This document shows positions 2,678 through 33,258 of a stretch of 64,000 nucleotides of DNA, in pieces. The stretch lies in NCBI GenBank assembly GCA_030645475.1, contig JAUSMA010000006.1:1-64000 (forward strand). Reading direction: 5' to 3'. Origin of the DNA: Nitrospirota bacterium. GTDB taxonomy: Bacteria; Nitrospirota; Nitrospiria; Nitrospirales; Nitrospiraceae. Under the pieces are notes generated by a model, which saw only the letters and a list, made by a program, of their open reading frames with translations, ran no database searches and had not been told where the DNA came from. The position numbers were made by a program, and so were the translations under genes. Each line of letters opens with the position of its first letter. Position 1 is the stretch's first letter.

Positions 2678-6372
<3,695 letters not shown>

Positions 6373-18496: not shown

Positions 18497-21400
18497 TTAC
18501 AGAGTCCCGTCGATTCGAACCCATTCGCCCGTAGGGCGATAGCGATACCATTCCTGGTCATCCGGGTCGAGGGCGACGAGGTGTACCCACTCGTTGTGAT
18601 AAAAATGCCGCAAGACTTCGTGTCGCTCGACCAGCTTGTCGATGCGCCCGCGTGGCGCCTCCACGATCGTGAGCAACCGCATCGGTTCGTGGTAGGGCAC
18701 ATCCCCGTTCATCACGGTCTGTCTGGCCAAACCCAATCGGAGGTCGCTCCAGGGGCCCGACATGATTCCGATCCGCCCCACGACGTTATGGTAGATCTTG
18801 CTGCCGCTGCCGTACACGTCGTTGTCCACGGCAGAAAAATAATGCTCCATGTTGATCCATTGCGCCACGACTTGCGGGCCGGTCATCAACACTTCGAGAA
18901 GACGACTGCTCGGATCCTGGCGCGCGTCGTAGGATTGCAGAAATACCCGTCCTTCGAGGTTGAGTCCCTTGGTCAGTTCCCGTCGTCCGATGACAAACGC
19001 CGTATTGCTCGAGAGGCCCCACTCCGGCCGGACCTGACTCCAGTCCACACTCCGTTTCCGCACGTGCGATTCCGCCGCACGCTCGTCTAACGGCTGCTGA
19101 TTCTCGGGGAAGCGCGTACACCGTTCCTGACTCGTCAGGGTGGAGGCCTCCTTGAGATCTTCCTGCAGCCGCGCCAGGTCGGCGCGATGGGTGGGCGGCA
19201 CATCTTCCAGGTCGAAGAGCTGGACCTCGTCGGTCGTCGTATCCATCTGACCGGCCAGAAAGTGGGTGTCGGGCGGAATCACCAGTTTATTCTTGGCCAG
19301 CCGCTCCCGTACTTTTTGGTTGTTCGCCATCATCGCCAGGACGCGGGCATTCGGCTTTCCTTCGTTGCCGCCGCAGGCGCCGCAATCCAGGGCCGACTCA
19401 TAGGGATTGTTCTCTGACGTACTGCCGTGGGCGCAGAACAAGACCAGCCGGGCCAGGTTCTTCGTGAGCCCCATCATCCGGAGCGCCGTGTCGACTGTGA
19501 GGGTCTGTTCATCGAGGGTGAATCCGGTCCGGGTGATCCGTTCTTTCTGGCGAGAGGCTGCGCGTGCGGTGAGGTCGTATTGGCGCCGCAAGATGTCGAG
19601 GAGGGGACGCAGAGATTCGGGCGTAAGCCCGGCCAGTTGCGCCAATTCGACCAGGGACGGGTCGAGTTCCGCCTGGCCGTTCAGCGCTTGTTGACGCAGG
19701 GCTTCGACAAGGGCCGGGGTGATGCGCGAGCTGCGCAATCCTGCATGCTCGTGCAGCACTTTTCTGACGATGGCATGGTGTTCGGCCGCCAGCATCTCAG
19801 CGGTTTCGGCCGGGGCCATCTTGTCGACGGTCAGTGTCGTCGCGATGGCCGGCACAAACAGGCGCCGCAACCACGAAGTCCAGCGTTGATAGAGCGATGG
19901 CAGGAGGGTCTTACCGAAGATCGGGAGGCCGTAGAACCAGCCCAGTGATTCCACCATGACATAGGGGGTCACGACGTTTTCCTTCAAATCGTGCAGCAGC
20001 GTATGGCCGGCATGGACCCACTTGGTGCGGGCTTCGTGTTTCGACACTTTGTGATCGAGATAGCTCCGGGGAATTTCGCGTACTTCGTTCTTCGCGCGCA
20101 TGATCACAGGGAACTGTTCGGTGTCGTGTTCCTTCCCCCAGGCGCGATAGCGAATAAAGGCCGCGAAGAATCCGGCAAATCCATAGGTCTCGTGCGGACC
20201 GGTGGACTCCAGGTGCCGGCGGAAGGGTTCGGAGCGCACATCGATACAATAGACGGATTGCGAATAGGGCCGGTTCGTGCCTGGCTGATCCGCCGGCACG
20301 ATTCGATGCTGTGCCGGTGTCCGTAACTGGGCGAGCAGGCGCTGCTGGTAGGCGTTTTCCAAGGCCTTGAGCCAGACCGGGCCATGGTTAGATTCGGGAA
20401 AGGCCTCCATCCAATCGAAGAGTTGTTTCAGCGTGGCGTGCGGCGTCTCGGCCAATATTGCCGGATCCAGTTCCAAGGAGCGAGCCAGCGCCACGAGCCG
20501 CTTGGCGGCGCCGCGGCGTGCGGCAATTTCCTGCCGTGGGACTACGTCCGTCCCGTAGCGCTCGATCACGCGTCCCCACCCGTTTCCCTTGTGATGCCGG
20601 AGCCGATCCACTTCTTCCGCATACAGCGCGGGTAATCGTCCGGCGACCCGCTGTCTCCTCAAATAGTATTCGTCGGGATGTTCGCGCATATAGGCGACGA
20701 CGGCGTCGTAGCGCCCTTCGATGCCGAGCTCTTCGCGGCAGGTTTTCTGAACCAGCTCGCTGGCGTACCAGAGGCGGATGGCGAGAAATTTCACGAGGCC
20801 GACCGGATAGGCCTTCTGCCAGGGATAATCGCGTTCTTCCGCGCGCCACTTGATGAAGCCGGCCCAGCCGGGCAGCGCGGTCAACTGCAGCGACAAGTAA
20901 TCCTGGCGCAGGTCCGAGGGAATGCCGAGCGCGTCCAGGCTCTGCAGTAGGGCATCCTCTGGATAGTCGGGCAGGCGGGAGATCTTTCCTCTGCTATCGG
21001 GGATGCCGACGGGAGACCATTCCTGTGCCGCCAGGTCTTTCCAGGCATGGTACAGCCCCTTCTTCCGTTCCGGCATAGACCAGGTCGCATGGCCTTCGTC
21101 CAGGAAGGCCTCGCACCACTTGATCAACTGATCGTTGATCTGTCGGACGATCTGTGTCCCGAAGGTGTCGTCGCACCAATGTGACAGCGTCAGCCATCGG
21201 CCCAGCGCGGCCTGGTCGCCTTCTACGATGAGCTGAATCCGCTTGCGGAGATCGGGGAACGCCCACTCGGTAGACAGACTTGCCGCGACAACGTCGATCA
21301 CGTTTTTTGCGGGGTCGTGCAGTTGATCATCGAGCGGTTCTGCGACCGGCGCACAGAGTCCCTCCGTGAGACAGGCCCGCAACACGTCGCCGTGCGCGAT

Positions 21401-21718
21401 CCGGCGCGGGCCGATCGTGACCGACTGATCCAGGACGAGGGGCTGTAAGGTGGCGTCGAGATGGGCCGCCTCAATCCGGCCCGTCTTTAGATACTCGCGA
21501 TAGAGCGCGCCGGGGAGGTAACTGTTCCCTCCCATGAATTGTTTGCCGCGCCGGGCGGTCTCTTCAAACGGGAGATACTCGAGGCTATGAAGCGGATTGT
21601 GGTGGACGAAGGTCCGCATCGGCCAGTACCGTGCAATCACTTCGCCGGCGAGTTGGACCACGCCGCGTAGCTCCATCCGTTTGGATTCGATGTCGATCGA
21701 CGGGTTTATCTGTTCCAT
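18497..21718 (-). CDS. dabA: Inorganic carbon transporter subunit DabA (DUF2309)
   Basis: DabA is the cytoplasmic carbonic-anhydrase-like subunit of the DAB complex, which with the membrane subunit DabB converts CO2 to bicarbonate using an ion gradient. Of 1073 residues, the presumed zinc ligands are all present: Cys491 and Asp493 in YCIDVRSE, His764 in CAHGSTSEN and Cys779 in LDCGACGG. The spacings of 2 and 15 match those of the characterised Halothiobacillus DabA2 (C351/D353, H524/C539). The start at ATG 21718 gives MEQINPSID; the open frame further upstream is a shadow of the NuoN-like gene, with which it overlaps by 13 nt. Confidence 0.93.
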   Translation of the reverse strand: MEQINPSIDIESKRMELRGVVQLAGEVIARYWPMRTFVHHNPLHSLEYLPFEETARRGKQFMGGNSYLPGALYREYLKTGRIEAAHLDATLQPLVLDQSVTIGPRRIAHGDVLRACLTEGLCAPVAEPLDDQLHDPAKNVIDVVAASLSTEWAFPDLRKRIQLIVEGDQAALGRWLTLSHWCDDTFGTQIVRQINDQLIKWCEAFLDEGHATWSMPERKKGLYHAWKDLAAQEWSPVGIPDSRGKISRLPDYPEDALLQSLDALGIPSDLRQDYLSLQLTALPGWAGFIKWRAEERDYPWQKAYPVGLVKFLAIRLWYASELVQKTCREELGIEGRYDAVVAYMREHPDEYYLRRQRVAGRLPALYAEEVDRLRHHKGNGWGRVIERYGTDVVPRQEIAARRGAAKRLVALARSLELDPAILAETPHATLKQLFDWMEAFPESNHGPVWLKALENAYQQRLLAQLRTPAQHRIVPADQPGTNRPYSQSVYCIDVRSEPFRRHLESTGPHETYGFAGFFAAFIRYRAWGKEHDTEQFPVIMRAKNEVREIPRSYLDHKVSKHEARTKWVHAGHTLLHDLKENVVTPYVMVESLGWFYGLPIFGKTLLPSLYQRWTSWLRRLFVPAIATTLTVDKMAPAETAEMLAAEHHAIVRKVLHEHAGLRSSRITPALVEALRQQALNGQAELDPSLVELAQLAGLTPESLRPLLDILRRQYDLTARAASRQKERITRTGFTLDEQTLTVDTALRMMGLTKNLARLVLFCAHGSTSENNPYESALDCGACGGNEGKPNARVLAMMANNQKVRERLAKNKLVIPPDTHFLAGQMDTTTDEVQLFDLEDVPPTHRADLARLQEDLKEASTLTSQERCTRFPENQQPLDERAAESHVRKRSVDWSQVRPEWGLSSNTAFVIGRRELTKGLNLEGRVFLQSYDARQDPSSRLLEVLMTGPQVVAQWINMEHYFSAVDNDVYGSGSKIYHNVVGRIGIMSGPWSDLRLGLARQTVMNGDVPYHEPMRLLTIVEAPRGRIDKLVERHEVLRHFYHNEWVHLVALDPDDQEWYRYRPTGEWVRIDGTL

Positions 21719-23016
21719 GCGTACGATCCTGAGTTGGCGCCGGTTGTGGCGGTCGTCCGGTCCGGTCCGAAGAGGCTGATCGGGGCCACGCCCAGTGCGA
21801 GCAGGGTTAAGACGACGATCACCAGGGATACCAGCTCGGTGTGAAGGAGATCGGCATACCGCAAGTCCGAGCGGCGAGTGCCGAACAGGAGTCTCTGTAC
21901 CAGATCCAGAATGTACCAGGATGATGCGAGCCAGGCAGAGACCAGCACAATGATGCCGGTCGAAAAAGCGGCGGTCGACGACAGCAGCAGACCCATGAAG
22001 CCCGCGAAGACGCCGAACGGCGGCAGACCCATGGCCGCCAGAGCCAGCAGAGAGAGCAGCACGGCATACTGGGGCATGGTGGAGGCCAACCCACTGATGG
22101 CCTGCGGGTCCACGTCGTCTCCGTATCGAGTGCGGATCATTTGCCAGGCCAACAAGAGCCCGCACATCACGAGACCGACGGCGCCGACGAAGAGCGCGGC
22201 GCGTGGCGTGGCCGATCGTGTGGTCACCACACACCACCAGAGCATCGAAAAGAACGACAGGCTGCTGTAGGCCAGCAGGAGCCGTACGCGCGATTGTGCC
22301 AGCGCCTTGATCGCGCCATAGGCGGTGCCGGCCAAGGCGAGGATGCTCATGACCCACACGACGGAATCCGGCAAGGTTGCTGCGAGCGGGGCCAGACTAT
22401 GCAGGCCGAGCGCCGGAAAGAGCAGCACCATGAACGACGGCAAATTTCCGGGTAACCGGGTCAACGCAGTGAGATGTCCATCGTGAAACGGCACGACGGG
22501 TAAGAGAATCGTACAGGCGAGCAACGCCGCCATCGAAGACAGCGGCGGGGCGGCTACCAGCGTCAGCAACAGGCAGAGGGCGCCGAGTGTGTAGGCCCCG
22601 AGGCCCCACCAGGAGATGGGCCAGAGGGGCGTGTGATGTCGATAGAGCAACACGATGACGAAGCCATGGATGGCCATCAGGAACAGTTTGTCGACGACGG
22701 GCTGACTGGTCAGCGCGCCGAGTCCCAGGCCCAGAAATATCAGGGTCAGGACCCAGGATGCGCGATGGTCCCTATGATGCGGTTGGCCCAAGAGCGACAC
22801 CCCGGCGGCGAGCGGCAGCAGCAGGAGCAGGAGCAGGCCTTCGGGCGGAGCCGTCAGATATCCGGCGAATCCCACGACGCAAGCCAGACTGACGGCGCAG
22901 ACGCCGACCGACCAGGCCATGAGCCGGTGGGGGTGGGTCCAGAACGCCGGGCTCAAGGCTGCGCCCAGCAAGGGAACTCCTGCGACAACCCAGGGGATGA
23001 CGGTGGCGTCGATCAT
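21706..23016 (-). CDS. NuoN/NuoM-like membrane subunit of the dab cluster
   Basis: A 436-residue membrane protein of the complex-I antiporter-like family (NADH:quinone oxidoreductase subunits M/N), with about a dozen hydrophobic helices. Recognisable parts are the loop around PVVPFHDGHLTALTRLP, YGAIKALAQSRVRLLLAYSS and MGLPPFGVFAGFMGLLL. It lacks the rest of complex I around it, so it is likely an ion-translocating partner in the DAB complex. The ATG at 23016 overlaps the preceding DabB-like stop (ATGA). Two-gene DAB systems do not contain this extra subunit. Confidence 0.82.
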   Translation of the reverse strand: MIDATVIPWVVAGVPLLGAALSPAFWTHPHRLMAWSVGVCAVSLACVVGFAGYLTAPPEGLLLLLLLPLAAGVSLLGQPHHRDHRASWVLTLIFLGLGLGALTSQPVVDKLFLMAIHGFVIVLLYRHHTPLWPISWWGLGAYTLGALCLLLTLVAAPPLSSMAALLACTILLPVVPFHDGHLTALTRLPGNLPSFMVLLFPALGLHSLAPLAATLPDSVVWVMSILALAGTAYGAIKALAQSRVRLLLAYSSLSFFSMLWWCVVTTRSATPRAALFVGAVGLVMCGLLLAWQMIRTRYGDDVDPQAISGLASTMPQYAVLLSLLALAAMGLPPFGVFAGFMGLLLSSTAAFSTGIIVLVSAWLASSWYILDLVQRLLFGTRRSDLRYADLLHTELVSLVIVVLTLLALGVAPISLFGPDRTTATTGANSGSYAWNR

Positions 23017-24731
23017 CGCGACCACCCGCGTTCGCGCTTGTCGAAACGATGGACGACGCGCATGACCGTCCGTCCAAGCAGTTGATAGAGTTCGTCGGCA
23101 TGCAAGCGGTTCATGAACAAGACATACAACCCGTTTCGTCCACCCTCGATCAGGCGTGAGGCCCATTTCGGCAGCCAGATCGTCCGGCCGTGAGCCTGCA
23201 TGTAGAGATAGCACCAGCTGAGGACGGTCATGACCGTGGCCATGAGGACGATGCCATCGAACATCCAGTTGGGAAGATCCGCAGCTTGAAAATACGAGGC
23301 CACTTCTACGGGATTCGGATAGAGGAAGGCTGTGAACGATTCGACGGCGAACAGGTAGACGAAGACGACGAAAAGCAGCGTGACGAGCATGGCCGAGGAC
23401 ACTTTCCAAGAGGCGATCGCGCGCAGGCGGGTGAGCGTCAAAATCGCCTGAGACGACGTGAGCCAGATAAAGAAGAGAAAAATGACCGTGCCCTGCGATT
23501 CGAGCAGCGGGATACGCAGGACTCCGTGAGTGACCAGCAGGATGACCAGGGGAATCACGAGCGTCGTCACGAATCCGGTCGACCAGGTGAGCGGGGAGAA
23601 GTTTTCTTCCTTTTCCTGAGGGTCAGCATGGGGCGATTCCGGTTCCTGTCGGGCTTTATGAATGACGTTCCCGCAATTCAAGAAGACGGTGCCTTTGAAG
23701 AGTCCGTGGGCGATCAGATGAAACACGGCCAGCGAAAATGCGCCCAGGCCGCATTCCATGATCATGTAGCCCATCTGCCCGATGGTCGAGAAACCGAGCG
23801 TCTTCTTGATGTCGTTCTGCGCCAGCATCATGGAGGCGCCCAGCACGGCGGTCAGCGTCCCCACCACGAAGGCCACATGCAACGTCGTCGAGCTGAGGCC
23901 AAACAACGGAGCCAGGCGGTTGATCAGGAAGCCGCCGGCATTGATGATCCCGGCGTGGAGGAGGGCATGCACGGGCGTCGGCGCATAGAGCGACCGGGGC
24001 AACCAGAAATGGAGCGGAAACTGCGCGGACTTGCTCATCCCGCCGATGAACAGGAGCAGCGTCACGGCCGTCGGACCACTGATTTCCCATCCCGGCAGGA
24101 GCGACAATGTCACGGACGATTCGGCCGCCCTGGTGAAGAGGTCCTGGAACTCCAGCGTGCCGTAGAGGGAATGGGCCAGGACGACTCCCGCAAGAAATGC
24201 GACATCCCCGATCCGCAACACCGTAAACGTTCTGAATGCGCCGTGCAGCGTCGCGGCATGGCTGTGATTATGAGCCAGGAGGTAGAGGAGATAACTCAGG
24301 AGTTGCCAGAAGAGAAACAGCATCATGAGGTTCGCGCTGGAGACCATGCAGAGCAGCACAAACGTCGTCACGCCGATGAGGGCCAGGTACCGGGGTTCGT
24401 GAGGGTCCTGGTACATGTACCCGATGGAATAGGCATAGATGACTGTCCCGACGCCCGAGATGAGGACCATCATGACGGCGCTGAGCCGGTCGATATAGAA
24501 GCCGATCGGAAAGGTGAGTGAAATAATGGAGGCGGGATCGTAGAAACGAATACTGATCGGTCCTTGCGTCGCGACGACGTAGAGGGTGGCGATGGCGCCA
24601 CAGAACGCCGCGCCGATCGGGAGGGTGGCAAGCTGCGTGCGCGCCCGGCGCGACGCGTCGTCACCCACGGAGACCATGAGGGCCGTGAGAAGGGGGAGGA
24701 GCGGGACTAACAAGGCAAAGGACACAAGCAC
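23013..24731 (-). CDS. dabB: DabB/NuoL-like membrane subunit, copy 1
   Basis: A 572-residue NuoL-like protein, the expected ion-translocating DabB subunit. Many transmembrane helices; family motifs include FWLPRSLYAPTPVHALLHAG, QNDIKKTLGFSTIGQMGYM and FHLIAHGLFKGTVFLNCG. The GTG start at 24731 is chosen because GGAG lies seven bases upstream. It is closely similar throughout to the gene at 24943-26631, clearly a tandem duplicate. It is followed by the NuoN-like gene with a four-base overlap. The 211 nt separating the two copies hold no gene. Confidence 0.88.
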   Translation of the reverse strand: MLVSFALLVPLLPLLTALMVSVGDDASRRARTQLATLPIGAAFCGAIATLYVVATQGPISIRFYDPASIISLTFPIGFYIDRLSAVMMVLISGVGTVIYAYSIGYMYQDPHEPRYLALIGVTTFVLLCMVSSANLMMLFLFWQLLSYLLYLLAHNHSHAATLHGAFRTFTVLRIGDVAFLAGVVLAHSLYGTLEFQDLFTRAAESSVTLSLLPGWEISGPTAVTLLLFIGGMSKSAQFPLHFWLPRSLYAPTPVHALLHAGIINAGGFLINRLAPLFGLSSTTLHVAFVVGTLTAVLGASMMLAQNDIKKTLGFSTIGQMGYMIMECGLGAFSLAVFHLIAHGLFKGTVFLNCGNVIHKARQEPESPHADPQEKEENFSPLTWSTGFVTTLVIPLVILLVTHGVLRIPLLESQGTVIFLFFIWLTSSQAILTLTRLRAIASWKVSSAMLVTLLFVVFVYLFAVESFTAFLYPNPVEVASYFQAADLPNWMFDGIVLMATVMTVLSWCYLYMQAHGRTIWLPKWASRLIEGGRNGLYVLFMNRLHADELYQLLGRTVMRVVHRFDKRERGWSR

Positions 24732-24942: not shown

Positions 24943-26631
24943 TCATCGCTCCGAGGATTTATCGAGACGATGGGCCATACGCATGACGGCCCGGCCGATT
25001 CGATCGCAGAGTTCGTCCACATAGAGCCGGTTCATGAACAGGACATAGAGTTGGATCCGCAGGCCTTCGACCCAGGGCGGCATCCAAAGGGTCCGTCCAT
25101 GGGCACGCATGTAGAGATAACACCAGCTGAGGACGGTCATGACCGTGGATAACAAGATTATGAGGTCAAAGAGCCAGATGGGAAGAGCGGCGGCCTTGAA
25201 ATACGACGCGACCTCGATCGGGTCAGGATACAAGAAGGCCGTGAAGGACTCGACGGCGAAGAGATACATGAACACCACAAACAGGAGTGTACACAACATC
25301 GCGGCCGACACTTCCCAGGAGGGCACCGCGCGCAGGCGGGTGAGCGTCAGAATGGCTTGTGACGACGTGATCCAAATGAAAAATAGAAAGATCACGGTGC
25401 CTTGGGATTCCAGTAAGGGGATGTGCAGCACGCCGTGGGTGAGGAGCAAGATCAGCAGGGGAATCATCAAGGTGGTGACGAACCCGGTCGACCAGGTGAG
25501 GGGGGAAAACGTCTGTTCTTCTTCCTCCTGGCCGGTATGCGGGAGGTGCGCTTCCTGTCTGGCCTTATGAATTTCGTTGCCGCTGTTCAGGAAGACCGTG
25601 GCTTTGAAGAGCCCGTGCGCGATCAGATGAAACACGGCTAGCGAAAATGCGCCGAGGCCGCACTCCATGATCATGTAGCCCATCTGACCGACCGTCGAGA
25701 AGCCGAGGGTCTTTTTGATGTCGTTCTGCGCCAGCATCATGCTGGCGCCCAGCACGGCGGTCAGCGTCCCCACCACGAAGGCCACATGCAACGTCGTCGA
25801 GCTGAGGCCGAAGAGCGGCGCCAGCCGGTTGATCAGGAAGCCGCCGGCATTGATGATGCCGGCATGGAGCAACGCCGTCGCGGGCGTCGGGGCATAGAGA
25901 TAGTGGGGGAGCCAGATGTGGAACGGGAACTGCGCGGACTTGCTCATCCCGCCGATGAACAAGAGGAGTGTCACCGCCGTGGCGCCGCTGATCTCGAGTC
26001 CCGGCAGCGGGGAGAACGTCACAGACGATTCGGCTGCCTTGGCAAACAACGCCGGAAACTCCAGGGTTCCGTAGAGCGCATAGGCGAGGACGATTCCGGC
26101 AAGAAACGTCACGTCGCCGACTCGAAGCAGCGTGAATGTCTTGAACGCGCCCTCCAGCGTTCCCGCATGGGTATGGTTATGGGCCAGGAGGTAGAGCAGA
26201 AAACTCAGGAGTTGCCAGAACAGAAACAGCATCATGAGATTGGCGCTGGAGACCAGGCAGAGCAGGACGAAGAGCGCCAGGCCGATGAGGGCCAGGTACC
26301 GCGGTTCGTGAGGATCCTGGTACATGTATCCGATGGAATAGGCGTAGATGACCGTGCCGATGCCCGAGATCAGCACCATCATGACAGCGCTGAGCCGGTC
26401 GATGTAGAAGCCGATCGGAAAGGTGAGTGAGGCCGCGGACGCTGCGTCGTAGAATCGAATGCTGATAGGTCCCTGCGTGGTGACGAGATAGAGGGTGGCG
26501 ATGGCGCCACAGAATGCCGCGCCGATCGGGAGGACGGCAAGCTGCGAGCGTGCCCGCCGAGAGCGGTCGTCACCGACGGCGACGATGAGCGCCGTCAAGA
26601 GCGGGAGCAGCGGAAGCAGGATGGCGTACAT
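24943..26631 (-). CDS. DabB/NuoL-like membrane subunit, copy 2
   Basis: A 562-residue NuoL-like paralogue and the first gene of the operon. It keeps the same motifs as copy 1 with some replacements: HIWLPHYLYAPTPATALL, FSTVGQMGYMIMECG, and LFKATVFLNSG in place of LFKGTVFLNCG. The middle part is almost identical to copy 1 even at DNA level, while both ends differ more. ATG start with GTGAGGGG upstream. A strong intrinsic terminator lies only 22 nt before the start codon, so expression probably depends on read-through. Confidence 0.87.
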   Translation of the reverse strand: MYAILLPLLPLLTALIVAVGDDRSRRARSQLAVLPIGAAFCGAIATLYLVTTQGPISIRFYDAASAASLTFPIGFYIDRLSAVMMVLISGIGTVIYAYSIGYMYQDPHEPRYLALIGLALFVLLCLVSSANLMMLFLFWQLLSFLLYLLAHNHTHAGTLEGAFKTFTLLRVGDVTFLAGIVLAYALYGTLEFPALFAKAAESSVTFSPLPGLEISGATAVTLLLFIGGMSKSAQFPFHIWLPHYLYAPTPATALLHAGIINAGGFLINRLAPLFGLSSTTLHVAFVVGTLTAVLGASMMLAQNDIKKTLGFSTVGQMGYMIMECGLGAFSLAVFHLIAHGLFKATVFLNSGNEIHKARQEAHLPHTGQEEEEQTFSPLTWSTGFVTTLMIPLLILLLTHGVLHIPLLESQGTVIFLFFIWITSSQAILTLTRLRAVPSWEVSAAMLCTLLFVVFMYLFAVESFTAFLYPDPIEVASYFKAAALPIWLFDLIILLSTVMTVLSWCYLYMRAHGRTLWMPPWVEGLRIQLYVLFMNRLYVDELCDRIGRAVMRMAHRLDKSSER

Positions 26632-26827
26632 GGGCCCCTCACGGTTTCAGAAAACAAAAAAGCCAACGGGGTTACGTGACGACATGTCCACGTACCATCG
26701 TTGGCTTGTACTGCAACCGGCCCGAAACGTGCCGGTCACCCTACCGCCGCTGTCTTTTCATCCTAATGGTTCCGCCTATCCCCCGTGCGAGCGTGGCGGA
26801 CCGCATAGGTCATCAGATGAAGTCTGC
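26632..26827 (-). promoter_or_regulatory. Structured 5' leader of the dab operon
   Basis: On the minus strand a candidate promoter, TTGACT (26857-26862) and TGATAA (26834-26839) 17 nt apart, would start transcription near 26827. The leader then contains three stems. Hairpin 1 is GGTCCGCC with GGCGGAACC (26768-26802), hairpin 2 ACCGGC with GCCGGT (26716-26736), and hairpin 3 an intrinsic terminator ending 22 nt before the start codon. This is the layout of a transcription attenuator or riboswitch. I could not match it to a known riboswitch class. Confidence 0.55.
26652..26707 (-). terminator. Intrinsic terminator just before the dab operon
   Basis: AAGCCAACG (26699-26707 on the minus strand) pairs perfectly with CGTTGGCTT (26660-26668). 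Nested inside is ACGTG paired with CACGT. The stem is followed on the minus strand by TTTTTTGTTTT. It points into the first gene of the operon and ends 22 nt before the ATG. Confidence 0.8.
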
Positions 26828-26946
26828 GTCTCCTTATCAAGGATCTGTCTCGGAGGAGTCAAGCTGTCGGGTACATTGCCCTGAGTGGCCTAGGCCTTCG
26901 GGCCCAGGTATCATGCCTTTTGGCCCAACGAGGTGCAGATTTGTCC

Positions 26947-27006: not shown

Positions 27007-27381
27007 GTGGTGAACAGAGGACTGACCAAAGGTGAAATCGAATCGGCGATTCGTCACGCCATTATTAAGTTCGAACAGGAATTTATGGGACGGGGCCCGG
27101 AGGATGTGCGGGCGTTCGTCGTGCGGGATCTCGTCGTCGTTCGCCTCAAAGGCGTTCTCACGCCGGCCGAGCGACAATTGGCCAAGACCGCCGAAGGTGT
27201 GGAGATGGTCAAGCGAATCCGACAGACCCTCATTGCCCAGGGCCGCGATCAGCTCTTCGAACAGGTGGGCAAAATAGTGGGGGCCAGGGTGCTGGCCATC
27301 TTTACCGATATCAATGCCCAGATCGGCGAGAAAGTCTTCGTGTTCACGGTAGATCGGGATCTGGAAAACCTCGGCCGGTGA
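27007..27381 (+). CDS. DUF2294 protein, copy 1
   Basis: A 124-residue DUF2294-family protein of unknown biochemical function. Conserved parts are IIKFEQEFMGRGPEDVRAFV, VVRLKGVLTPAERQLAKTAEG and FTDINAQIGEKVFVFTVDRD. Small soluble alpha/beta protein. GTG start at 27007, with GGAAGG five bases upstream; a second GTG follows directly and could also be used. It is the first gene of a unit leading to a second DUF2294 gene and a carbonic anhydrase. The context suggests a role connected with inorganic carbon, which is inference. Confidence 0.82.
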   Translation: MVNRGLTKGEIESAIRHAIIKFEQEFMGRGPEDVRAFVVRDLVVVRLKGVLTPAERQLAKTAEGVEMVKRIRQTLIAQGRDQLFEQVGKIVGARVLAIFTDINAQIGEKVFVFTVDRDLENLGR

Positions 27382-27448
27382 ACCTCGCCGAGGGCGAACG
27401 GAAATCCCCATCTGGGCAATCTTGGTTTGAATCAGAAGAGGGTATGAC

Positions 27449-27793
27449 GTGGAAAACGCCATCCGTAACGCCGTCATCAAGTTCGAGCAGGAGTTCATGG
27501 GACGCGGTCCCGATGAGGTGCGCGCGTATGTCGTGCGGGATCTGGTTGTGGTCCGGCTCAAGGGGGTGCTGACGCCGGCCGAACGTCAGTTGGCCAAGAC
27601 GGTGGAAGGTATCGACATGGTGAAGCGATTGCGGCAGAATTTAATCGCGCAGGGCCGCGACAAGCTCTGTGAGCAAGTGAGCGAGATCACCGGCGCTAAA
27701 ACACTCGCGGTTTTTACGGACATCGACGTCCAGCTCAGTGAACGGGTATTTGTGTTCACGCTCGACCGCGAGATCCAGAACGGAAGCCAATAG
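27449..27793 (+). CDS. DUF2294 protein, copy 2
   Basis: A 114-residue paralogue of the preceding gene, differing mainly at the N-terminus and the tail. Long identical stretches include VRDLVVVRLKGVLTPAERQL. GTG start with AGAGG upstream. It ends 15 nt before the carbonic anhydrase start, so the two are almost certainly co-transcribed. The tandem duplication parallels that of the DabB genes on the other side of the divergent promoter region. Confidence 0.82.
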   Translation: MENAIRNAVIKFEQEFMGRGPDEVRAYVVRDLVVVRLKGVLTPAERQLAKTVEGIDMVKRLRQNLIAQGRDKLCEQVSEITGAKTLAVFTDIDVQLSERVFVFTLDREIQNGSQ

Positions 27794-27808
27794 AGAGGCA
27801 CCCGCACG

Positions 27809-28456
27809 ATGGAAAAACTCGTCAGAGGATTCCTGAAGTTTCGGACCGAGGTATTCGGCAAGAGGAAAGAACTCTTCACCAGGCTTTCCGAAAACCAGGC
27901 TCCGCGGGCGCTCTTCATCACCTGCTCCGATTCGCGAGTCGACCCTACCCTCCTGACACAGGCCGATCCCGGCGAGCTTTTCATTCTCAGGAACGCCGGC
28001 AACATGGTGCCGCCATACGGCTCGATGCAAGGCGGCAGCACGGCTACGATCGAATATGCGATGGCGGTCTTGAAGGTTCCCCACATCATCGTCTGTGGCC
28101 ATACCGATTGTGCCGTCATGAAGGCCCTGCTGAATCCGGAAGCGGTCTCCGACCTGCCCGCGTTCAGGGAATGGGTTGGGCAGGCGGAAACGACCCGCCG
28201 CTTGATGCACGAGCACTATACCGATCTGGAGGGCGACGATCGTCTGATCAAGACGACCCAGGAAAACGTCCGATCCCAGCTCGACCATCTGCGCACCCAC
28301 CCGTCCGTCGCCCTGCTTCTGCGCCAGAAGAAGGTGGATCTCCATGGGTGGGTCTATTCCATCTCGACCGGCGAGGTGTGGGTCTACGACTTCGACTCCG
28401 AGCAATTCGCCTCTCTGTTGGATGAGACCTATCCTCGCTTGAAAACATCGAGCTAG
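27809..28456 (+). CDS. Beta-class carbonic anhydrase
   Basis: Zinc enzyme interconverting CO2 and bicarbonate, cytoplasmic. The 215-residue protein has the beta-class ligands Cys39-Ser-Asp41-Ser-Arg43 (CSDSR) and His98-x-x-Cys101 (HTDC). The core helix region is GSTATIEYAMAVLKVPHIIV, and the tail includes HGWVYSISTGEVWVYD. It lies divergent from the DabA/DabB operon. The pairing suggests supply or re-use of bicarbonate for carbon fixation; a free cytoplasmic enzyme could also work against a bicarbonate pool, so its regulation is of interest. Confidence 0.93.
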   Translation: MEKLVRGFLKFRTEVFGKRKELFTRLSENQAPRALFITCSDSRVDPTLLTQADPGELFILRNAGNMVPPYGSMQGGSTATIEYAMAVLKVPHIIVCGHTDCAVMKALLNPEAVSDLPAFREWVGQAETTRRLMHEHYTDLEGDDRLIKTTQENVRSQLDHLRTHPSVALLLRQKKVDLHGWVYSISTGEVWVYDFDSEQFASLLDETYPRLKTSS

Positions 28457-30015: not shown

Positions 30016-33000
30016 ATGGCTAAAGGACGCGGCGATTCGAAACTAGCGGTGGCGGGAGCTCTCACACTCGTGCTGGCCATTGCCGGGGTGTTGCTGGTGA
30101 AAGAACCTCTGCGCAGCTCTCGGCCAGTCGGTACAGGGCTGGAGATGAACCCGACGACCGGCGAACAGTTGGTTCGTGCGCGCTTGTGGGAAGATCCGGT
30201 GGCAGCCGTGCAGCGGGGCCTGCGCGGAACGGGACCGACCGGCAAGACTGCCGGAACGGAATCCACCATCTCGCAACGGCTTGGCGCGCTGAGACAGACA
30301 ATTGCCGAGCGGACCAGGAGTGGACAGCGCATCACCGTGCTCCTGGTGACCACGAGCGGGGGGCCTTACGTCGAAGGCGCCGAGTCGCGCATCCGCGATC
30401 GTTATGCCATTGGCACTGCGCTGGGTGTCGGCTGTTATGTGCCGGAGGACGAGGGCCATCTCTCCTTTGTGGAATGGGAGCCGCAAGGGGCCGTGCAGGC
30501 CCTGCCCTATGAATGGTATCGCTTGAGAAAGACACGCGTTTGCGGAGAAGAGGCCTCGCGTGCCTCCGCAGTTCTGGTCGTCTGGCTACCGGAAGAGGCC
30601 CTCAATCGAGGGTTCTTGGCGACCCTGACCTCTCTTTCCCAAGCCCTGGTCTGCCAGGAGGCGAAACAGAAACATGACTGTCTCCTGACCGACGACAAGC
30701 GAAAACTAGTCCGTCTGAATCCGGCGGTACAACAGGCGGTCACGTTCAAAATCATGGGCCCGCGCAGTTCGTCGGAATTTCGCAGTTTCTTGCAGGAAGC
30801 CGGGGATCTGTATGGCGAGCCGCATGAGGGAATCGGCGTCTGGCCGAATGCCGACGGCGCGATCGAGCTCTATTCGCCTTGGACAAGCGCGATGAAGGGC
30901 CTGCTCGCCTACGGACTCAAGACAGAGGGCGGCAAAGGCACCGCTTGCACGACGTATGAGGTGTGCGAGCAGGAGTTTCACCGCCGACTGGCGATGGCAC
31001 AGGTTCGCCTCGTCTACGATGTCGGTTCGGACGATCGGTTATTCGGCGCGCTGGTTGAAGAACTAGAGCGCCGGCAGGTACGGCTCGGCTGGGACGCGGT
31101 GATCCTCATCGGGGAATGGGATTCGTTTTACGGGCGGACTCTGCCGATCGAGTTCCGCGCTGCAGCCTGTGCGAAGGTAGCCACCTTTCCGGAAGCCGAT
31201 TTGAGACAGATTCAGGTTCCGGTGGACATCAAGAAATGGTGTCCGACCATTGAGCGTGCGATCGACTTGCAAATTCAACGTCCTGCCGACTACGAGTCGC
31301 TCACGCTCAATGTCTTTCGCTATAGCTATCTCAGTGGCCTCGATGGGGAAGTGCCTGGCGACGACGCGGCGAGAGCCGCTCGGGCTGCCAAAGCCGTTGC
31401 CGGGAATCAGTCCAGCGACGCAACCCGTGACCGTCCGGAAGGAACGAGCCAGCTCGACTACGTGCGGGCCTTGGTCGCGCGTATTTACGAGGAAGGGGAA
31501 GGCGCGAGGGCTATCGGCATCCTGGGCACGGACCCCTACGACGCGTTGCTCATCATCAAGGCCCTCAGGCCCGCGTTCCCCCATGCGATCTTTTTTACCG
31601 TCGATCTCGATGCGCGCCATCTCCATTCGAGCGAATACAAATCGACACGCAACATGGTGATCGCTTCTCCGTTCGGGCTGCAATTGGAGGGAGGATTCCA
31701 ACGCGACGTCCCGCCGTTCCGGAGCAGCTATCAAACGTCGGCCTACCTGGCCGCCCTGCAAGCGGTGCAGTTTGTCGCTTGTGGACCGGCTGGTCATCAG
31801 CCGTCCATGGCCGGACCCTGCACGACGGGGTACCATGTCGACTTGACGCCGGACGACCGCATCTACGATGCAGGATCTCACCCCAGGATCTTTGAAGTGA
31901 GTCGCGACGGTGCGGTGGACTTGAGCCCGGTGGACAAGGAGGGGCTGCGCACGGTCCATCCACTCAGGCAGGACCTGGCTCATACGGACGAACTGGGAGC
32001 CTTAAAACAGGGAGTCGGATTCGATAACACCGCGGTCGCGGCGGGGCTGGTCATTGCGTTGCTGGTCGCCATGGTCATCGCCTGGAGCAATGAGCGGCTC
32101 TGGCTGTGGGTATTGCGACATCCTCGTCTGTTGACGGTCACGGCTTTCATCGGTGTGGCGTCGTTCGCGGCCTTCGTCGCCTTCGGCGGGGCAGAAGCGC
32201 TGTTAGCCAATCATGACGAAGGGGAGCCCTTCTCCTGGACCGCCGGGGTCAGCGTCTGGCCGAGTGAACTTCTCCGGTTCTTCGTCGTGGTGCTCTGTCT
32301 GGTCATGCTGGGGAAGGGCCTGCGCGATCTGGCCAAGAACAGCGACGCGATCAGCGAGGATTTTTTATTTCAGGATGAGTCGGGCCGCTGCCGATTGTCA
32401 CCCCGGACCTTCTGGACCAACTTGCAGCGGGTTTACCATCCGGCTGCGACCAGGACGGCGACGACGGTGGATCAAGCCTGGTCCTGGTATCGCGAGGCGG
32501 CCATTCCGTCGCAGCGAGTGATGCGGACCATCCTCCTGTTTCTGCTGTATCTCTCGATCATGTGGCCCTTGCAGCATTGGGTCTTGAACGAGGAAATGAT
32601 TCATCCCTGCCGCGGTCGGCTGAGTTGCGGCATCGATTGGATCATGGCGCTGAGCAGCGCCTGTTTCGTGGTGTTGCTCAATCTGGCGGTGTTCGATGCC
32701 GTCATGCTGTGCCGGCGGTGGATCGGCTGGTTGACGGCCTCGACCGGTGGCTGGTCCGATCAGGTTCAAGAAGAATATCTCCGGGAATATGGTCTGGGCC
32801 AGGCCCAGAAAGCCGAGTTTGAAAAGTTAAAGTACTTGGCCGTGGTCGATCTCATTGCGCAACGGACCGAAGTGGTGAATCGCCTGATTCGTTATCCCTT
32901 CATCGCCTTGTTAATCATGATCGCGGCGCGGAACGACTACTTCGATATCTGGAATTATCCCCTCCTGTTGATCCTGTCCTGGTCTTTGAACGTCGTGCTG

Positions 33001-33258
33001 GCGTTGATGGGCGCCTACTTGCTGTACCAGTCGGCCAGCAAAGCGAAGGCGGCCATGCTGGCCGGGCTCAGCCGCCAGATGGTCCAGGCTCTGGGAACCG
33101 GCAAGGATCACGATGTCCGCGTCAAGCAGATCCAGTACGTGATCGACGAAGTGGAAGAGAACGAACAAGGGGCCTTCGTGCCCCTCTATCAACAGCCGGT
33201 GATCGAGTCGTCGCTCTACGGCATCGTCGCCTTGCTGCAATATTTGTATATGAAATAA
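30016..33258 (+). CDS. Large uncharacterised membrane protein
   Basis: A 1080-residue protein I do not recognise. One hydrophobic helix at about residues 9-28 is followed by a roughly 640-residue soluble part, presumably outside the cytoplasm. That part has alternating strands and helices (RITVLLVTTSGG, AVILIGEWDSFYG, AIGILGTDPYDALLIIKALR) somewhat like periplasmic-binding or Rossmann folds. About seven helices follow between residues 670 and 1010, and then a cytoplasmic tail. Several Cys residues lie in the soluble region. The downstream hydrolase gene starts 4 nt after its stop, so they form one unit. No enzymatic motif identified. Confidence 0.85.
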   Translation: MAKGRGDSKLAVAGALTLVLAIAGVLLVKEPLRSSRPVGTGLEMNPTTGEQLVRARLWEDPVAAVQRGLRGTGPTGKTAGTESTISQRLGALRQTIAERTRSGQRITVLLVTTSGGPYVEGAESRIRDRYAIGTALGVGCYVPEDEGHLSFVEWEPQGAVQALPYEWYRLRKTRVCGEEASRASAVLVVWLPEEALNRGFLATLTSLSQALVCQEAKQKHDCLLTDDKRKLVRLNPAVQQAVTFKIMGPRSSSEFRSFLQEAGDLYGEPHEGIGVWPNADGAIELYSPWTSAMKGLLAYGLKTEGGKGTACTTYEVCEQEFHRRLAMAQVRLVYDVGSDDRLFGALVEELERRQVRLGWDAVILIGEWDSFYGRTLPIEFRAAACAKVATFPEADLRQIQVPVDIKKWCPTIERAIDLQIQRPADYESLTLNVFRYSYLSGLDGEVPGDDAARAARAAKAVAGNQSSDATRDRPEGTSQLDYVRALVARIYEEGEGARAIGILGTDPYDALLIIKALRPAFPHAIFFTVDLDARHLHSSEYKSTRNMVIASPFGLQLEGGFQRDVPPFRSSYQTSAYLAALQAVQFVACGPAGHQPSMAGPCTTGYHVDLTPDDRIYDAGSHPRIFEVSRDGAVDLSPVDKEGLRTVHPLRQDLAHTDELGALKQGVGFDNTAVAAGLVIALLVAMVIAWSNERLWLWVLRHPRLLTVTAFIGVASFAAFVAFGGAEALLANHDEGEPFSWTAGVSVWPSELLRFFVVVLCLVMLGKGLRDLAKNSDAISEDFLFQDESGRCRLSPRTFWTNLQRVYHPAATRTATTVDQAWSWYREAAIPSQRVMRTILLFLLYLSIMWPLQHWVLNEEMIHPCRGRLSCGIDWIMALSSACFVVLLNLAVFDAVMLCRRWIGWLTASTGGWSDQVQEEYLREYGLGQAQKAEFEKLKYLAVVDLIAQRTEVVNRLIRYPFIALLIMIAARNDYFDIWNYPLLLILSWSLNVVLALMGAYLLYQSASKAKAAMLAGLSRQMVQALGTGKDHDVRVKQIQYVIDEVEENEQGAFVPLYQQPVIESSLYGIVALLQYLYMK

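Follow-up and report, generated by a model that had tools for sequence, protein, structure and literature searches.

A candidate cis-acting RNA attenuator class upstream of inorganic-carbon uptake genes in Nitrospirales

In cyanobacteria, carbon-uptake and sodium-gradient genes are co-regulated by carbon status through the LysR-type regulators CmpR and NdhR (PMC4390856). These are proteins acting on DNA, whereas the element described here, with similar targets, is an RNA. The Na+ riboswitch (DUF1646 motif, RF03071) resembles it in having two hairpins, transporter genes downstream and ON logic (PMC9337991), but the RF03071 covariance model found no match at the present loci (seven genomes, E up to 5-10), the genes differ, and a carbonic anhydrase is among the present targets. 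Terminator-overlapping ON riboswitches are alike in that the 3' strand of the conserved hairpin is also the 5' strand of the terminator and in controlling a coherent regulon; the present RNA differs in matching no Rfam 15 family in sequence or fold, in being seen so far in Nitrospirales only and in that its ligand binding is putative. The RAT hairpins of LicT/BglG share the imperfect hairpin, the small internal loops and the terminator overlap, but the present targets are not sugar-uptake genes and the RNA-binding domain of these proteins (CAT_RBD, PF03123) is absent from the genome analysed here, while control genomes were positive. The open-access literature searched (subscription papers being outside its scope) contained no description of Nitrospira, DAB or bicarbonate RNAs, and no case of RNA control of CO2 or bicarbonate uptake.

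The window, a 64,000-nucleotide stretch of contig JAUSMA010000006.1 from a Nitrospirota bacterium (GCA_030645475.1), contains a dab operon comprising dabB, a second dabB-like gene and dabA, whose true start lies downstream of the listed start of its frame (Table 1). The leader sits in the 375 bases separating dabB from a divergent gene and is flanked on both sides by an inorganic-carbon cluster, with the dab operon in one direction and the mpsC-like and beta-carbonic anhydrase genes in the other, indicating that the entire neighbourhood is concerned with inorganic carbon. A 1080-residue protein without a Pfam match (30016-33258, plus strand) adjoins this cluster.

Table 1. Positions of the leader elements and neighbouring genes in the window.
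Feature	Position	Strand	Evidence
Promoter-like box, TTGACT (26862-26857), N18, GATAAG (26838-26833)	26833..26862	-	sequence; spacing in relatives
P0, 5' hairpin domain of leader	26762..26812	-	covariation in 41 relatives; window fold
P1/P2 hairpin	26703..26748	-	covariation; minimum-energy fold of leader ended before complete terminator
Intrinsic terminator	26651..26707	-	z = -4.6; covariation in 98 and 46 relatives
Covariance-model match	26650..26756	-	89.9 bits, model R1
dabB, first operon gene	24943..26631	-	PF00361, PF00662
Second dabB-like gene	23013..24731	-	PF00361, PF00662
Frame containing dabA	18497..22357	-	PF10070 DabA, E 1.2e-264
Divergent neighbours of dab operon	27007..28456	+	two mpsC-like genes, beta-carbonic anhydrase
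mpsC-like gene, first	27007-27381	+	PF10057
mpsC-like gene, second	27449-27793	+	close duplicate of first, judged by eye
Beta-carbonic anhydrase	27809-28456	+	PF00484

The sequence-only reading had described a leader of about 195 nt with two hairpins and a strong terminator before dabB, its U-tract ending about 20 nt ahead of the first start codon, and all of these elements were recovered on the minus strand, with a U-rich tail at 26661-26651 and the dabB ATG at 26631. The promoter-like box would place the start of transcription near 26826, which fits the length of the leader. In most of the Nitrospiraceae relatives examined, this box takes the form TTGACG-N15-TATTAT or TTGACT-N18-GATAAR and precedes the RNA core by a near-constant distance of about 106 nt. 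Beyond the -35 box (about 26930-26880 in the window), many Nitrospira relatives also share a conserved upstream sequence resembling CCTAGGGCTTTCGGACCATTGCRTGA, possibly a protein-binding site that adds a second layer of control.

The core of the leader is the P1/P2 hairpin, presumed to be the antiterminator or aptamer core. Its P1a helix pairs GGC (26748-26746) with GCC (26705-26703) and P1b pairs GUA (26744-26742) with UAC (26710-26708), one free base facing AA between the two; a GG/AG internal loop then leads to the P2 stem of about nine pairs (26739-26731 with 26721-26713). P1a comprises three base pairs only, and a few members have no clear GGY (L092, L128). The terminator arm AAGCCAACC starts immediately after the UAC of P1b and uses the same GCC, which the terminator 5' arm, AAGCCAACG (26707-26699), paired with the 3' arm CGUUGGCUU (26668-26660), thus has in common with P1a. 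The 63-nt terminator fold (-23.6 kcal/mol, z = -4.6) was equalled by none of 200 shuffled sequences, while the whole 231-nt leader was moderately above chance (z = -2.1; 2/200 shuffles as good), so that folding energy alone was insufficient and comparison with relatives settled the case. The dabB-leader terminator was not listed by a simple terminator scan, presumably owing to the length of its hairpin and the interruptions in it. In three relatives (L010, L011 and L014), an additional hairpin of high GC content (GCTCCAGCAGCC...GGCTGCTGGAGC) is inserted between the terminator and dabB; it may be a small mobile repeat.

No Rfam 15 family reached its gathering score in the window, in agreement with the earlier failure to recognise a riboswitch class here, and at lax thresholds the window and nine relatives returned far sub-threshold chance matches alone. 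A DNA search found the leader in 14 of 32 same-genus genomes, nearly always before dabB, with the common core GGC-N-GUAGGGYGACCGGC ... GCYGGUYGYAGUACAAGCCAAC ... GUUGGCUUUUGUG. A strict pattern scan of 84,980 species yielded 46 exact matches; the 45 records containing them all carry the label Nitrospira or Nitrospirae/Nitrospirota, and nearly all matches with downstream sequence precede dabB. Genomes beyond the phylum were covered by this strict pattern, which also misses the second family (f2), so that absence there is tentative. Because the pattern prescribes certain letters, the invariance of those letters in the resulting alignment (A3) is partly selection, a bias mostly removed by the later covariance matches. 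The covariance model R1, built from 45 pattern-scan sequences and run on 396 genomes of the phylum, matched strongly in three families of Nitrospirales and gave no convincing match beyond that order. A second model, R2, matched 187 of 236 Nitrospirales genomes and, beyond the order, gave weak, terminator-only matches alone; E-value calibration of the covariance models is rough. Two terminator-only matches were set aside: L110, outside the order, which lacks the GUAGGG core and precedes an isocitrate-dehydrogenase-like frame (an unscanned reading), and L120, whose high R2 score is circular because it was included in alignment A4. Judging from its Mrp loci and PMC12342949, the second family would correspond to marine lineage IV (UBA8639). 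In some genomes that carry DAB genes, no copy of the RNA could be detected (e.g. G028, G004, G178, G235 and G329). As far as seen, the class appears restricted to Nitrospirales.

The earlier proposal would have been refuted had relatives shown no conserved stems ahead of their dab genes; the comparison found the stems conserved, with compensatory changes, across three families of the order. Across 98 sequences, 16 of 22 pairs have changed on both sides, with 155 compensatory cells compared to 33 in shuffles and every sliding control far below 155, and in a later batch of 46 relatives, scored with R1 and containing none of the sequences used to build it, 17 of 22 pairs have changed on both sides (113 cells; 37.5 in shuffles); both alignments were made by fitting to the model, and counts of this kind are raised by relatedness among the sequences. 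The size of the effect and the sliding control nevertheless leave little doubt that the covariation of P1/P2 and the terminator is genuine. Non-canonical positions also shift jointly, the change of AG to AA being accompanied by that of GG to AG or CG in several members, and in L122, where P1a is GGU/ACC, the terminator arm has changed from GGC to GGU, keeping both pairings. For P0, 12 of 13 pairs have changed on both sides in 41 relatives (68 cells; 20.9 in shuffles), the pairs having been picked by eye and tested on the same sequences; RNAalifold predicted no pairs in this poorly aligned region.

The suggested link to CO2 or bicarbonate was strengthened by the genes downstream of other copies, which include SulP transporters, Mrp operons and an LCIB-type carbonic anhydrase. 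In two sets combined, the first downstream gene is related to inorganic carbon in 156 of 162 matches, a few loci being entered twice by way of two collections. The first set (n = 122) comprises 76 DabB, 13 DabA, 13 MrpE (the start of the Mrp antiporter operon) and 14 SulP (BicA-like) targets, or 116 carbon-related genes, and the second is carbon-related throughout (40/40: 16 DabB, 10 MrpE, 9 SulP, 4 DabA and 1 LCIB-type carbonic anhydrase). The other six matches of the first set are L047 and L125, which have no downstream sequence, one copy in L046 (4012) before an unassigned frame, and three weak look-alikes that appear false (L120, L109 and L110). The L046 copy (4012-4119) is a second intact RNA in a genome whose dabB copy lies 3.3 kb further downstream; it precedes a 797-residue frame without a Pfam match and may be a relic or an extra target. 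In some second-family genomes, SulP, DabA and Mrp are each preceded by a copy of their own (L119, at 510, 3467 and 6764). In L034, a Nitrospira relative (CG24C), only a dabB remnant lies behind the RNA (5547 onward) and a SulP gene now takes its place, so the RNA persisted through a change of target. The copy before the LCIB-type carbonic anhydrase (PF18599) is at L209 (1814-2741), and a relative of that gene lies upstream of the DabA copy of L107. The bicA and mrp genes of 'Ca. N. alkalitolerans' occur together and have been proposed to co-operate in bicarbonate uptake (PMC7784846); the RNA precedes the same kinds of gene.

The attenuator design originally proposed gains from the prediction of a second structure, P1, that would exclude the terminator, P1a and the terminator being mutually exclusive in the folding models through their common GCC. 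When 111 cores were ended 12 bases past the GCC, imitating nascent RNA, P1b formed in 106 and the GCC paired upstream in 101 (91%), compared to 45% with the 5' flank shuffled; in folds of the complete cores, the GCC was within the terminator in 110 of 111. The shortened window leader folded exactly into P1/P2 and the complete one into the terminator. Mutually exclusive expression-platform structures, as expected of a riboswitch, are thus predicted, and they accompany a conserved, covarying, structured leader and a coherent set of downstream genes. In its predicted working the element resembles a transcription-terminating riboswitch, membership of that class hinging on ligand binding.

These folds suggest a mechanism in which the polymerase would make P0 and then the P1/P2 hairpin. 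With no signal, P1a would open, the GCC would join the terminator and transcription would end before the genes. With the signal present, P1 (GGC-N-GUA ... UAC-AA-GCC, with the conserved GG/AG loop) would be held, the foot of the terminator blocked and the genes read through. From this geometry, a ligand that holds P1 would give read-through and hence an ON switch, in which the RNA would bind a small molecule or ion directly and the signal would report scarce inorganic carbon. Termination by default, the ON direction, direct ligand binding and a carbon-limitation signal are all four what we infer. It is likely that the leader belongs to an undescribed class of cis-acting transcription attenuators in Nitrospirales that jointly controls inorganic-carbon uptake genes, an ON riboswitch being its most likely form. 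The chances appear about even for the fuller proposal, in which it would be a new class of riboswitch, and the first RNA found to sense inorganic-carbon status, that binds a reporter of carbon limitation (possibly bicarbonate) and co-ordinates the DAB, SulP, Mrp and carbonic-anhydrase genes of Nitrospirales that oxidise nitrite or ammonia. For an ON switch, a compound that accumulates under carbon shortage is a better candidate signal than bicarbonate, although bicarbonate could also act as an inducing substrate.

The same attenuator could instead be read by an RNA-binding antitermination protein on the P1/P2 hairpin and its internal loops, in the manner of LicT/BglG. An imperfect hairpin with small internal loops and an overlapping terminator is the geometry of such protein targets as well, and the conserved P1/P2 loops fit protein contacts, but the usual candidate proteins are absent or ill-fitting, making this reading unlikely. 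Antitermination by ANTAR was also considered, since the genome encodes one ANTAR protein, and was rejected: ANTAR targets are two hairpins with six-base loops (A1, G4), but the P2 loops vary in both length and sequence.

A switch responding to Na+ (or pH) and activating sodium-handling transporters, namely Mrp, SulP as a Na+/HCO3- symporter and a Na+-coupled DAB, is rather improbable. It would agree with the Na+ linkage of Mrp and BicA-type SulP (PMC7784846), with the proposed Na+ coupling of MpsAB (PMC13144422) and with the known Na+ riboswitches, which are ON switches whose terminator overlaps the second hairpin (PMC9337991). The solved DAB2 complex, however, has been argued to be proton-driven rather than sodium-driven (PMC13144422), and the Sodium family RF03071 is unmatched at these loci. 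What all the targets share is inorganic carbon; a sodium signal would account for Mrp, SulP and possibly DAB and would leave out the carbonic anhydrase. One RNA copy precedes the LCIB-type carbonic anhydrase, for which we know of no sodium role, and this target favours a carbon-limitation signal over Na+.

That the leader works mainly as a free small RNA, ended by its own terminator, with the genes read from another promoter or by leakage, is very improbable: a promoter-driven leader directly before a terminator could yield a short RNA, but the same gene families follow at short distance in the 156 of 162 matches, L119 has its separate SulP, DabA and Mrp copies, and P1a is conserved though relevant to a switch alone. 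Ribosome-mediated attenuation through a leader peptide, which typically uses terminator/antiterminator pairs, is scarcely credible and was rejected, as short frames with a preceding ribosome site are rarer in the leaders (17%) than in shuffled ones (25%), none occurs in the window leader and none is conserved in the leaders of relatives.

The preferred reading, an attenuator that is most likely an ON riboswitch, implies that RNA is probably the means by which these nitrifiers detect a shortage of carbon or a condition linked to it. Inorganic-carbon sensing is little known in chemoautotrophs other than cyanobacteria, and the element offers a short RNA for direct trials of candidate signals. A conserved RNA marking DAB, SulP, Mrp and LCIB-type carbonic anhydrase genes would define a carbon-uptake regulon in a globally important order of nitrifiers, and speaks for a role of the SulP and Mrp genes of these organisms in carbon uptake.
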